A model generated the notes under the pieces. It was given only the letters and a program-made list of their open reading frames with translations. It searched no databases and was not told where the DNA came from. From NCBI GenBank assembly GCA_018449595.1, contig JAAVUU010000002.1, positions 558,001 to 622,000 on the forward strand: a stretch of 64,000 bases of DNA, written 5' to 3'. The translations under genes and the position numbers were made by a program. This DNA is from Rhizobiales bacterium dw_265 (GTDB taxonomy: Bacteria > Pseudomonadota > Alphaproteobacteria > Micropepsales > Micropepsaceae). This document shows, one piece after another, positions 32,350-62,100 of this stretch (position 1 is the first letter of the stretch; every line of letters starts with the position of its first letter).

Positions 32350-33381
32350 TCAGGCGTTTAACCGCCGCAACTCAAACGCATGCCAGACCGCGGCGCAGAG
32401 CAGCAGCGCCGCCGTGACCTGGTGCGCAGCGGCGAGCAATTCCGGCGCCTGCAGCAGCAGCGTGCTGATGCCCAGGAAAATCTGGAACACGGTGATCGCC
32501 GTCACCGCCTTGGCGCTTTTCTTGGCAAGGCCCGTTAGCCTGATGCCGCGCGCATAGATGAAGGCCGCGAAACCGGCGACGATATAGGCCCCGATGCGAT
32601 GATCGAATTGTGCCAGTCCGTCATTCTCGAAAAAGTTGATCCACCAGGGCGCTGCGAAGAACGGCGCTTCGGGAAAGACATGCCCGTTCATGTCGGGCCA
32701 GGTGTTGTAGACCAGCCCGGCATGCAGCCCCGCCACCAGCGCCCCCAGCAGCATCTGCAGATAGACCAGCGCCGCAAAGGCAAAGCCGCGCCTCGCATCC
32801 CCTTTGCCCTGACCATCCCTTAGATATTCCAGCGCGATCCACAATATCGCCACCAGCAGCAGCAGCGCCGCGCCCAGATGGATCGCCAGCCGGTACTGGC
32901 TGACGCTGGTGCGTTCCTCAAAGCCGCTGCTGACCATCCACCAGCCGATGAACCCTTGCAGCCCGCCCAGCAGGAACAGCAACAGCATGCGCGGCCATTC
33001 CGTGCGCCTGACCGCCCCCACCCAGGCGAACCATAGGAACGGCACGAAAAACACCACGCCCAGCAATCGCCCCACCAGCCGATGCGACCATTCCCACCAG
33101 AAGATGCCCTTGAAGGCCTCCAGGCTCATGCCCTGGTGCTCGACCTTGTACTGGGCGATCTGCTGGTACTTGCGGAAGACGTCCTGCCACTGCGCGCCGT
33201 TCAGGGGCGGCAGCGCCCCCATGATCGGGTTCCATTCCATGATGGAGAGGCCCGAGCCGGTCAGCCGCGTCAGCCCGCCGATGGTGACCATGCCCAGGAT
33301 CACCAGCGCCACGGCCAGCAGCCAGACACCCACCGCCTTGCGGCTTTTCCAGAAGTTTTCGGCGACAGTGTTTTTTGGCAT
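32350..33381 (-). CDS. ctaA: Haem A synthase (COX15/CtaA)
   Basis: The protein is 343 aa with eight predicted membrane helices. It oxidises haem O to haem A for cytochrome aa3 oxidase. Typical motifs are TIGGLTRLTGSGLSIMEWNP, the histidine helix FWWEWSHRLVGRLLG, YRLAIHLGAALLL, QMLLGALVAGLHAGLVYNTWPDMNG, FDHRIGAYIVAG and the final histidine in LAAAHQVTAALLL. Length fits the alphaproteobacterial COX15 type. It is divergent from a DUF2842 gene and convergent with metY. Confidence 0.96.
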   Translation of the reverse strand: MPKNTVAENFWKSRKAVGVWLLAVALVILGMVTIGGLTRLTGSGLSIMEWNPIMGALPPLNGAQWQDVFRKYQQIAQYKVEHQGMSLEAFKGIFWWEWSHRLVGRLLGVVFFVPFLWFAWVGAVRRTEWPRMLLLFLLGGLQGFIGWWMVSSGFEERTSVSQYRLAIHLGAALLLLVAILWIALEYLRDGQGKGDARRGFAFAALVYLQMLLGALVAGLHAGLVYNTWPDMNGHVFPEAPFFAAPWWINFFENDGLAQFDHRIGAYIVAGFAAFIYARGIRLTGLAKKSAKAVTAITVFQIFLGISTLLLQAPELLAAAHQVTAALLLCAAVWHAFELRRLNA

Positions 33382-36623: not shown

Positions 36624-36706
36624 CGAAGGAAGAATAGGCCATGAACGCCATCAACGCGACGGCTCGAATGACACTAGCGGGGAGCCTGCCGCGCCCGGCC
36701 TTGGCA

Positions 36707-36736
36707 TTTCTTTTTCGCGTCTTCGCGAAAAAGAAA
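36707..36736. repeat. 30-bp palindrome next to the tRNA-Pro repeats
   Basis: TTTCTTTTTCGCG (36707-36719) and CGCGAAAAAGAAA (36724-36736) are perfect 13-bp arms with loop TCTT. It directly abuts the last 100-bp repeat unit, at the end of the presumed tRNA-Pro transcript, and could stop transcription or protect the 3' end. The A/T arms do not give a classical trailing T-run on either strand. Confidence 0.7.
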
Positions 36737-36936
36737 TGGTCGCAATGGCGGGGTAAGCCATGCGCCCAGCATGGCGAACGCGCGGCGCGCAAGCGACGCG
36801 CCGGGAATCCCGCCTAAAGATGGTGAAAGGAGAGAATGGTCGGAATGGCGGGGTGAGCCATGCGCCCAGCACGGCGAACGCGCGGCGCGCAAGCGACGCG
36901 CCGGGAATCCCGCCTAAAGATGGTGAAGGGAGAGAA
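36737..36936 (-). repeat. Two 100-bp tandem repeats downstream of tRNA-Pro, each ending in a copy of the tRNA 3' end
   Basis: Units 36737-36836 and 36837-36936 have a period of exactly 100 bp and differ at only a few bases. In tRNA orientation each unit ends CCCCGCCATTCCGACCA (the outer copy has one change, TTGCGACCA), which repeats the last ~16 nt of the tRNA-Pro gene including the CCA. The spacer is TTCTCTCC..CACCATCTTTAGGCGGG..GCGC-rich. The arrangement resembles the tyrT locus of E. coli, whose repeats also begin with tRNA 3' ends. Confidence 0.9.
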
Positions 36937-37013
36937 TGGTCGGAATGGCGGGATTTGAACCCACGACCCCTTGTCCCCCAGACAAGTGCGCTACCAGGCT
37001 GCGCTACATTCCG
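36937..37013 (-). tRNA. tRNA-Pro (anticodon GGG)
   Basis: A 77-nt cloverleaf starts at 37013. The acceptor CGGAATG pairs with CATTCCG, CCA is encoded at 36939-36937, the D-arm contains AGCGCAGCCTGGTAGCGCA, the anticodon stem CTTGT/ACAAG encloses CTGGGGG (anticodon GGG), and the T-arm contains GGTTCAAATCC. It is intact and followed by the 100-bp repeats. Confidence 0.95.
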
Positions 37014-37125: not shown

Positions 37126-37722
37126 CTAGAGCTGGCGCGCGCGCGACGCCTGCAAACGGGCCTTCAGGCCGGTCAGTTCGTCCAGCAATTCTTCCAGCCG
37201 TTTGCGGTCTTCCGCCGCCAAACCGCCGGCTGCCTCGGCAACCGGCGCGATCCCGGCGTCAGGCTCGGGTGGTTCGAGCGCCGCTTGCGGTTCATCGAAA
37301 AAGGGCAGCGACAGGGTGGCGGGCACGGCGCGCAAATGGGCGGGGCGCGGCTTCTTCACCGGCGCGGGCGCGGGTTTTTCGACATAGACGATCTTCTCGA
37401 CCACCACAGGCTGGGCCTCCGGCGCGCCGCCACGGCCGACCCCGGCGACATGGCGCAGGCCGCGTTCCTTCAGCACCTTCTGCACGCCCTTGATGGTGAA
37501 ACCGTCGGTATAAAGCAGCGCGCGAATGCCCTTGAGCAGGTCCACATCCTCGGGACGATAATAGCGGCGTCCGCCGGCGCGCTTCACCGGCCGGATCTGG
37601 GCGAAACGGCTTTCCCAGAAGCGCAGCACATGCTGGGGCACGTCCAGTTCGATCGCGACTTCGCTGATGGTGCGGAAGGCTTCCGCCGATTTGTGCGAAT
37701 AGGCAATCGCCGCCGATGACAC
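37126..37722 (-). CDS. MerR-family transcriptional regulator (downstream of ihfA)
   Basis: The protein is 198 aa from a GTG start at 37722 that overlaps the ihfA stop (TAGTG). The winged HTH at residues about 16-85 shows [22 protein letters not shown], then [20 protein letters not shown] and [15 protein letters not shown]. The middle is Pro/Ala-rich and the C-terminus is a short coiled coil ([19 protein letters not shown]). No metal-binding cysteines are present. The ihfA-merR pair is a fixed neighbourhood in alphaproteobacteria; the target genes are unknown. Confidence 0.92.
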
Positions 37723-60553: not shown

Positions 60554-62100
60554 TATTCCACCACTTCTATCTTTGGGGCTGCACCGGCCGCGAAGGACGG
60601 CCGCTTCATCAGCCAGATGATCGCAAACACAGGCAGCGAAACCAGGAACATGAAAAGGAAGTCGTTGGAATAGGCCTGCACTTGCGAACGGTATTCTATG
60701 AGAGAATTCAGATTTGCCAACCCAAAAGGAATCTGGGGGTTCATCATCATCGAAGGCCCATTGACGCCCAACGCCCGGTTGAACAGGGAAGCATGGTGCG
60801 ACAGTTGGGCATGAATGGTCTGCGTGCTGTCGGCCAGGATGGTGGTGGTGACGGAAACCCCGATCGCCGAGCCGATATTCCGCATCAGGTTGGTGAGGCC
60901 CGCGCCATCTGTGCGCAGTTGTGGCGAAAGTGTCGCAAAAGCCACCATGTTCATGGGCACGAACACCAGTCCCATGCCCAGGCCCTGGACGAAGGTCACC
61001 GTGAACAGGGTCGCCACGCTGACATCGGGCGTCCAGTACATCATCTCCCACATCGACCAGGCCAGGCACGCCGCGCCCACCGTCATCAACAGGCGCGGGT
61101 CCATCTTCATGGTCAGCCGGCCGGCGAACATCATGGCGAACATGGTGCCCAGCCCGCGCGGCACCATCAGGAAGCCGGTCTCGGTGACGGTGCGCCCCGA
61201 CAGGTTCTGCAGATAGGGCGAGATCAGCGCCGAGGAGGCCAGCAGCACCAGCCCCATCACGAACATCAGGACAAGCCCGCCGACGAAATTGCGGTCCCTG
61301 AAGATCACCGTCGGGATGAAGGGCTTCCTGGCCGTCAGCATATGCACCAGGAACAGGTAAAGGCCGATGCCGCAGATGATGGCCTCGACCACGATCTCGC
61401 CGGAATCGAACCAGCCCTTGGTGGTGCCGCGGTCCAGCAGCAGCTGCAGCGCCGCCAGTCCCACCGACAGGGCGCCGAAACCGAACCAGTCGAACTTCAG
61501 GCTCTGGTCCTTGGCGCTGTCCTTGAAGAATATCCACAGCGCCACGCAGGCCGCCGCGCCGAACGGCACATTGATGTAGAACACCCAGCGCCAGTTGTAG
61601 GCGTCGGTCAGCACCCCGCCCAGCGTCGGCCCCAGGATCGGCCCCAGCATCACGCCCATGCCCCAGATCGCCATCACGCTGCCGCGCCTGGCCGGGGGAT
61701 ACATGTCCAGCATCACCGCCTGGCTGAGCGGCCCCAGCGCCGCGCCGAAGACGCCCTGGATCAGGCGGAACACCACCATCTGCTCCAGGCTTTGCGAGGC
61801 GCCGCACAGCATGGAGGCGATGGTGAAGCCGGCGATGGAAGTGATCAGAAAGTTGCGCTTGCCGAAGCGCGCCGCGATCCAGCCCACCGGCGCGGTCATG
61901 ATGGCGGCGGCGATGATATAGCTGGTCAGAACCCAGGTGATCTGGTCGCGCGACGCCGACAGGCTGCCTTCCATATAGGGCAGCGCGACATTGGCGATGG
62001 TGGTGTCCAGCGCCTGCATCAACACGCCCGCCATGCTGCCGATCAGGACCGCCCATTCGGCCACCTTGCTGTCATACCGGTGGGCGGCGTGCTCGCTCAT
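60553..62100 (-). CDS. emrB: DHA2-family multidrug efflux MFS transporter (EmrB-like)
   Basis: The protein is 515 aa with 14 predicted helices. The MFS signature appears as ALDTTIANVALPYMEGSLSA (helix 1), SYIIAAAIMTAPVGWIAARFGKRN and RGSVMAIWGMGVMLGPILGPTLGGVLT (the DHA2 G-x-x-x-G-P-x-x-G motif C). It works with the periplasmic adaptor encoded 6 bp upstream and an outer-membrane TolC not seen in the window. It is likely repressed by the MarR protein at the head of the operon. Confidence 0.93.
   Translation of the reverse strand: MSEHAAHRYDSKVAEWAVLIGSMAGVLMQALDTTIANVALPYMEGSLSASRDQITWVLTSYIIAAAIMTAPVGWIAARFGKRNFLITSIAGFTIASMLCGASQSLEQMVVFRLIQGVFGAALGPLSQAVMLDMYPPARRGSVMAIWGMGVMLGPILGPTLGGVLTDAYNWRWVFYINVPFGAAACVALWIFFKDSAKDQSLKFDWFGFGALSVGLAALQLLLDRGTTKGWFDSGEIVVEAIICGIGLYLFLVHMLTARKPFIPTVIFRDRNFVGGLVLMFVMGLVLLASSALISPYLQNLSGRTVTETGFLMVPRGLGTMFAMMFAGRLTMKMDPRLLMTVGAACLAWSMWEMMYWTPDVSVATLFTVTFVQGLGMGLVFVPMNMVAFATLSPQLRTDGAGLTNLMRNIGSAIGVSVTTTILADSTQTIHAQLSHHASLFNRALGVNGPSMMMNPQIPFGLANLNSLIEYRSQVQAYSNDFLFMFLVSLPVFAIIWLMKRPSFAAGAAPKIEVVE

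Follow-up and report, generated by a model that had tools for sequence, protein, structure and literature searches.

Tandem 100-bp units behind a tRNA-Pro(GGG) gene: candidate very small insertions at gene ends with the layout of tRNA-gene islands

The tyrT repeats of E. coli are a long-standing oddity, and a role as a processed small RNA or as a tRNA-processing decoy has been proposed for rtT. At E. coli tyrV, three exact 19-nt copies of the tRNA tail end 178, 356 and 534 bp downstream, and the two units that were read each carry GGTTCGAC or GGTTCGGC and, beyond a structured insert, AATCCTTCCCCCACCACCA, which makes a split T-arm. Prophages e14 and 21 in icd replace the 3' end of that gene with a largely silent variant, the original end being displaced, and REP/BIME are short, dispersed, intergenic palindromic repeats. 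Islands in tRNA genes are located by a signature made up of an intact tDNA, an insert and a displaced tDNA fragment, as set out in the Islander paper (PMC4383910).

In the window analysed here, meaning the whole 64,000-nt stretch of DNA, a tRNA-Pro(GGG) gene is followed by tandem units that, like those of E. coli tyrT/tyrV (rttR RNA, tpr), each end in the tRNA 3' tail with its CCA. E. coli also shares with the class B bodies described below a T-arm copy (GGTTCGAC...AATCC) that a structured insert interrupts. Unlike the E. coli repeats, the units are spaced at 100 rather than 178 bp and number two rather than three, and an RNA or protein product forms no part of the likeness. Homology between the E. 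coli insert and class B was rejected as not significant, given that, in comparisons with six class B-type inserts, no fewer than 29 of 500 shuffles scored as well. Because the inserts lack a sequence match, the tyrT comparison is one of layout and not of membership. The close parallel drawn in the original prediction therefore holds for the tail copies and the split T-arm, but not for the inserts, whose sequences have no detectable relation. In openly accessible listings no literature on these repeats or on rtT was recognised, which does not imply absence from print.

The tRNA-Pro(GGG) locus in the window and in relatives

The tRNA-Pro(GGG) gene, with encoded CCA, lies on the minus strand at 36937..37013 (ARAGORN and Rfam) and is followed on the same strand by unit 1 (36837..36936) and unit 2 (36737..36836). 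The prediction of 100-bp tandem units at this position was confirmed by TRF, which reported a 100-bp period with 2.2 copies, 96% matches and a score of 408 at 36735-36952. The two units are in exact register, with four differences over 100 positions, of which one falls in the outermost tail. Read along the minus strand, each comprises a 22-nt T/C-rich trailer, the hexamer GGCGGG (36909..36914 in unit 1, 36809..36814 in unit 2), a body of two hairpins (36853..36908 and 36753..36808) and a copy of the final 16 nt of the tRNA, CCCGCCATTCCGACCA. The body, ATTCCCGGC...GGCTCAC in unit 1, ends in GGCTTAC in unit 2. As had also been proposed, both units close with the tRNA-Pro 3' end including CCA, matching it at 16/16 positions in unit 1 (36837..36852) and at 15/16 in unit 2 (36737..36752), and 84 nt separate CCA from displaced tail. 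In the window's own genome (G000) the exact 14-mer CGCCATTCCGACCA is confined to the tRNA and unit 1. The minus-strand position, the hexamer that partners the tail's CCCGCC and this 14-mer distribution go beyond the original prediction. The repeats do end at a palindrome, which measures 34 nt rather than the 30 bp first given; it has 15-bp arms, lies at 36705..36738 (strand not assigned), overlaps the CA of the final CCA and has an RNA fold z of -7.7.

In the predicted RNA folds of both window units GGCGGG pairs with CCCGCC of the tail copy, forming a helix around the two hairpins, so that a unit resembles a T-arm joined to the acceptor 3' strand, with hairpins in place of the loop. A near match to this predicted helix was found in G092.

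Orthologous tRNA-Pro loci were retrieved via the adjacent gene directly upstream (37126..37722, minus strand), which we take from its sequence to encode a MerR-type regulator. The relatives' genomes are mostly drafts, and membership of the genus is as assigned by the search tool. In contrast to the two units of the window, one unit is present at tRNA-Pro(GGG) in each of G090 (L070; 131 bp), G092 (L074; 133 bp) and G071 (129 bp), with 113-117 nt between CCA and displaced tail. The original prediction would have been undermined by absence of the repeat from all relatives; its presence in three of them is the opposite result. In each relative the unit tail matches the tRNA of its own host (GGCCACTCCGACCA in G090, TGTCGCTCCGACCA in G092, CGCCGCTCCGACCA in G071), and across the four species the partner of the tail varies with the host tail, reading GGCGGG in the window, GGCCGG in G090, and AACAGG and AGCGGG in the others. 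In an alignment of five rows, 93% of the 30 cells of this partner/tail helix are paired, with both-side changes in 3/30 cells and in 2/6 pairs.

A further genome, G066, carries a tRNA-Pro identical to that of G090 (77/77). Past CCA, the first 23 nt in G066 equal those found beyond the displaced tail in G090, and the trailer adjoining the G090 tRNA differs from this native one. G066 thus looks like the empty site, the match being one-sided and short, since alignment is lost past those 23 nt. The MerR tree, which has 38 rows and several long branches, requires 4 changes for 'filled' as a label, 3 of which are forced by well-supported branches. Counted here were 4 filled rows against 8 rows with a CCA-abutting hairpin; the other 26 rows belong to neither group. 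Both repeated gain and one old gain followed by several losses fit this patchy presence.

At eight loci (L007, L008, L011, L023, L028, L072, L076 and L077) a palindrome directly follows the tRNA-Pro CCA, and one does so in several relatives that lack a unit. CCA-abutting palindromes occur at several other tRNA genes of G000 as well, often followed by a TGCCAAG-like sequence and a second GC-rich hairpin, and their stems vary between species yet remain paired.

Tail copies at other tRNA genes and the inserted bodies

The tRNA genes of G000, G090, G070 and G087 (164 genes, one with too little downstream sequence) were surveyed for copies of their own tails. Within 400 bp downstream, the last 16 nt are copied exactly at 12/164 genes and with up to three mismatches at 18/164. 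These copies are not due to chance, because in the same four genomes the 16-nt tails of other tRNAs match exactly in a fraction of only 0.00044 of 25,040 pairings. Among 93 of the 127 tRNAs of three control genomes from three other families (G044, G047 and G057) there were no tail copies, after one exact and one three-mismatch match inside neighbouring tRNA genes had been set aside (Fisher P = 0.005 for exact copies and 0.0005 for up to three mismatches, with orthologues counted separately). Gapped scoring gave a tail copy at P ≤ 0.01 for 21/158 tRNAs, against 1.6 expected. The 18 cases comprise Ala-CGC in three genomes, Pro-CGG and Pro-GGG in two each, and Arg-ACG, Arg-TCT, Asp-GTC, Gln-TTG, His-GTG, Leu-CAA, Leu-CAG, Ser-CGA, Ser-GCT, Ser-GGA and Val-GAC, the leucine cases being weak.

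Across these tRNA cases, the inserts between CCA and displaced tail measure about 70-190 nt. Fragments of the tRNA 5' end, with up to two mismatches in 15, lie upstream of 4/164 genes (0.39 expected); the controls have 2/93, both within a tandem tRNA cluster of G057. At tRNA-Ser(TGA), the 5' fragment is split in the anticodon loop by a class B body in G090 and, as read by eye, in the D-loop by a class A-like body in G000; most other fragment edges lie in the T-loop or T-stem. Exact-pattern searches of 69 genomes found no Gln-TTG tail pairs 101-161 bp apart (0/69), the G087 pair, at 182 bp, lying outside this range. Pairs of TCCGACCA 68-128 bp apart were found in 17/69 genomes, and the match was placed at a tRNA tail in G000, G070, G071, G008 and G087; G090 and G092 lie outside the spacing range. 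The reversed control pattern matched 14 times, and the pairs beyond the five placed genomes may be mostly chance.

In G070, behind tRNA-Ser(CGA) (L341) and tRNA-Ser(GGA) (L340), a stretch that roughly matches the 3' half of the tRNA in inverted orientation lies between a hairpin abutting CCA and the direct tail copy (P = 0.014 at L341; read by eye at L340).

Two kinds of inserted body, termed class A and class B in this analysis, were recognised. Class A, found because the body of the G090 unit matched elsewhere in the genus, is a dispersed hairpin repeat of about 85 nt (CCCGGCC...GGCTCAC), and the body of the window units is a shortened copy of it. It occurs at E ≤ 1e-10 in at least 28 of 69 genomes of the genus, with no more than 13 candidates per genome scored, and, at E ≤ 0.01, in at least 8 other places in G000 (40 of 49 candidates scored). 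A second full match to the shortened unit of the window is absent from G000, where the best remaining hit covers 31 bp at 87% (E = 0.0016). Among 76 distinct cores the two hairpins are kept, with both-side changes in 8 of 10 pairs. The right end reads CTCAC in 62/77 copies, and CC directly follows it in 40/77, against a background of 9%. No class A match was found in plasmids, nor an exact 30-mer of it in viral contigs. As a short hairpin repeat dispersed between genes, class A is like REP; duplication of gene ends with synonymous differences is, to our knowledge, not part of REP.

Class B is common to Pro-CGG, Ser-CGA and Ser-GCT, with the left edge GTTCGAC in most and the right edge CGC-AATCC, and its comparisons across tRNAs each score above all 200 shuffles. 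At Ser-GGA the left edge is like that of class B and the insert has no clear relation. The target preference of IS91-type elements is GTTC/CTTG, which would fit the class B left edges.

The arrangement agrees in several respects with tRNA-gene islands, as these are described in the Islander source (PMC4383910). An intact gene is accompanied by a displaced fragment in direct orientation, 3' fragments are common and 5' fragments rarer, and tandem arrays occur. Edges fall at the T-loop or T-stem for most 3' fragments and at the anticodon loop for G090 tRNA-Ser(TGA), and the D-loop edge of G000, read by eye, lies outside the three positions given there (anticodon loop, T-loop and T/acceptor junction). 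Unlike islands, the units are of about 100 bp rather than kilobases, the 84 nt of the window and the 113-117 nt of its relatives leave no room for an integrase, and one dispersed body is shared at many unrelated genes, including protein genes.

Duplicated gene ends beside class A copies

Gathered loci provided 77 distinct class A copies, which are not a random sample. In 13 of these (0.8 expected) the sequence preceding class A recurs after it at P ≤ 0.01, and 12 were accepted, L487 being a doubtful thirteenth; the remaining 64 have no gene-end duplicate at this threshold. The accepted cases at tRNA genes, all confirmed by ARAGORN, are Pro-GGG (G090 and G071), Ala-CGC (L237 and L514) and tRNA-Met (L214), where the scored match is the trailer hairpin and the tail copy itself matches at 14/16. 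The others are glutathione peroxidase, SufA-like, glutathione reductase, HpnA twice (at its 5' end), YifB and a palindrome (L242). Further duplicates outside the 12 are at Arg-ACG, Gln-TTG and, weakly, 3-hydroxybutyrate dehydrogenase. Duplicates beside class A span 16-82 nt, and in the protein cases the gene body is to the left of class A and the displaced copy of the gene end to the right. The protein-gene families have Pfam domains above cut-off. Of the NCBIfam models, those for glutathione peroxidase, SufA and glutathione reductase (a truncated sequence) scored below cut-off, and cut-offs were reached by TIGR00049 (iron-sulphur accessory family), TIGR01963 (3-hydroxybutyrate dehydrogenase), TIGR00368 (YifB) and HpnA.

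Each gene end was compared by codon with its displaced copy, up to the first stop, and set against 20,000 draws of random substitutions. Synonymous and nonsynonymous differences number 13/3 for SufA-like, 9/2 for glutathione reductase and 6/1 for glutathione peroxidase, and in none of these three cases was any of the 20,000 draws as conservative. YifB gave a weak 4/2 (230 of 20,000 draws), and over 14 codons HpnA gave 6/2 in G024 (P = 0.0005). No synonymous excess was seen for HpnA in G081 (2/3, P = 0.51) or over the four codons of 3-hydroxybutyrate dehydrogenase (2/1, P = 0.35). The extreme ends differ more freely: in SufA-like and glutathione reductase the two copies diverge in protein sequence, and in length, over the final two or three codons, and in glutathione peroxidase 81 of 82 nt are identical, after which the last codons and the stop differ. 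GC3 is lower in the gene-adjacent than in the displaced copy for SufA-like (0.53 and 0.82), glutathione reductase (0.61 and 0.94) and HpnA of G081 (0.50 and 0.64), and equal in the other four.

The displaced copy belongs to no gene, and therefore mainly silent change there is not slow drift. Either the displaced copy would be fresh, the end of the gene having arrived already different, or it would have been renewed by recombination with native alleles. Replacement of a gene end by a largely silent variant, with the original displaced, would be like that by e14 and 21 in icd; unlike class A, those prophages are large, carry their own integrase and use one gene each.

A protein-level search for displaced ends gave the smallest attainable P (1/44) in 3 of 38 same-strand tests, of which only glutathione peroxidase was far above the null and one was not a gene frame, and in 0 of 34 tests on the opposite strand. 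The suggestion that TCA of CTCAC serves as the stop of a convergent gene was rejected, the relevant frame being open in 24/77 copies and the other frames in 23/77 and 11/77, which is no enrichment. Two class A bodies stand in tandem at L480 (G070) and L208 (G087), and at L480 they lie behind yifB, with a copy of the yifB end between the bodies.

Origin of the units

Since the layout is the signature by which tRNA-gene islands are found, the units can be read as insertions that follow island logic at very small size. On balance, we favour the view that a very small insertion, structured and non-coding, entered the tRNA 3' end and is present there in tandem copies. The inserted DNA would bring a new tRNA 3' end, leaving the gene intact, and with it a body of hairpins that ends in CTCAC, preceded by a short trailer; the original gene end would be left displaced beyond the insert. 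Joining would be site-specific, after CTCAC, and would be performed by a recombinase acting in trans. The second unit of the window would stem either from another insertion event or from duplication in tandem, and the four differences between the units are compatible with both. Like insertions, with a class A-related or class B body, would account for the copies that the genus has at the ends of numerous tRNA genes and of some protein genes. Repeated integration is thus favoured among the origins first proposed, with the enzyme and the direction of transfer being what we infer; direction is unreadable where tRNA tails are exact copies. Counted against insertion are a size far below that of islands, the 64 of 77 class A copies that have no duplicate at the threshold used, the one-sided empty-site match, the weak or absent synonymous excess in YifB, HpnA of G081 and 3-hydroxybutyrate dehydrogenase, the divergent last codons of SufA-like and glutathione reductase, the patchy presence at tRNA-Pro, which one old gain with losses would explain, and the negative recombinase search with Y1_Tnp.

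Slippage or template switching at strong hairpins, which would duplicate the tRNA tail and trailer in tandem with no mobile element involved, is unlikely as the origin. It would suit the 96% identity and exact register of units 1 and 2, and Pro-CGG in G008 also has two units. Stems of at least 10 abut CCA at 33/162 tRNAs of the genus, against 5/93 in the controls and none in shuffles, and inverted tail copies at P ≤ 0.01 occur at 9/158 tRNAs (1.6 expected). However, one body recurs at different genes and in different species, the trailer adjoining the tRNA is non-native in the comparison of G066 with G090, and gene ends differ from displaced copies mainly at silent sites. Slippage, as originally put forward, can thus explain the step from one unit to two and leaves the shared dispersed body and the synonymous gene ends unexplained; the tRNA-Pro repeat is not a one-off slip.

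Less probable again is a MITE-like dispersed repeat whose transposition near gene ends creates target duplications of variable and considerable length, after which the copy in the gene drifts silently. Such an element would leave what is seen for class A, namely dispersed copies beside duplicates 16-82 nt long and hairpins that covary over 76 distinct cores, but the displaced copy, which would be free to change, largely retains the protein sequence, and at Pro-GGG the tail is duplicated and the trailer is not. Retention of the units as a functional RNA, whether a processed small RNA or a tRNA-processing decoy as for rtT, is very doubtful: the tyrT-like layout and the predicted T-stem-like helix, with its paired cells and both-side changes, speak for it, whereas the distribution is scattered, the same bodies occur at protein genes, the predicted fold in G090 pairs GGCCGG within the body instead of with the tail, the folding z of the units is -1.5 and -1.9, then -3.5 (G090) and -0.3 (G092), and Rfam gave nothing beyond tRNA at gathering score and chance-level matches below it.

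The insertion reading can be extended, tentatively, to non-coding cassettes of about 100-200 bp that a putative recombinase moves in trans into the ends of tRNA and protein genes, each with a matching, silently altered end, which would make the insertion phenotypically silent; E. coli tyrT would then be an independent or a distant case. The frequent occurrence of a tyrT-like layout within one genus, at numerous tRNAs and some protein genes, makes insertion and duplication testable against each other as origins, and unit insertions may help to explain the E. coli repeats. If gene ends are indeed supplied by the insert, elements that insert by such logic would here be very small, and the question raised is how a 100-bp element carries a matching, silently altered end for many genes.

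A search for a recombinase with one Pfam family, Y1_Tnp, found none for the units. An origin from RAYT/REP was rejected: in the parts of the locus that were read, the one Y1_Tnp gene of G000 is flanked by other repeats, and class A does not flank a RAYT gene in its own genome as REP does. At L411 (G000:C15:126300-130300), a Y1 transposase gene, presumably of the RAYT type, lies 1.6 kb from tRNA-Val(CAC), with short repeats around GGGACACTATACTTAA flanking it. Elsewhere in the window, ARAGORN called tRNA-Cys at 32646-32744 (aca) and 61391-61483 (gca), both probably false calls and neither with Rfam support at gathering score, and TRF reported tandem repeats of 237 and 285 bp with 88-89% matches at 326-1690.
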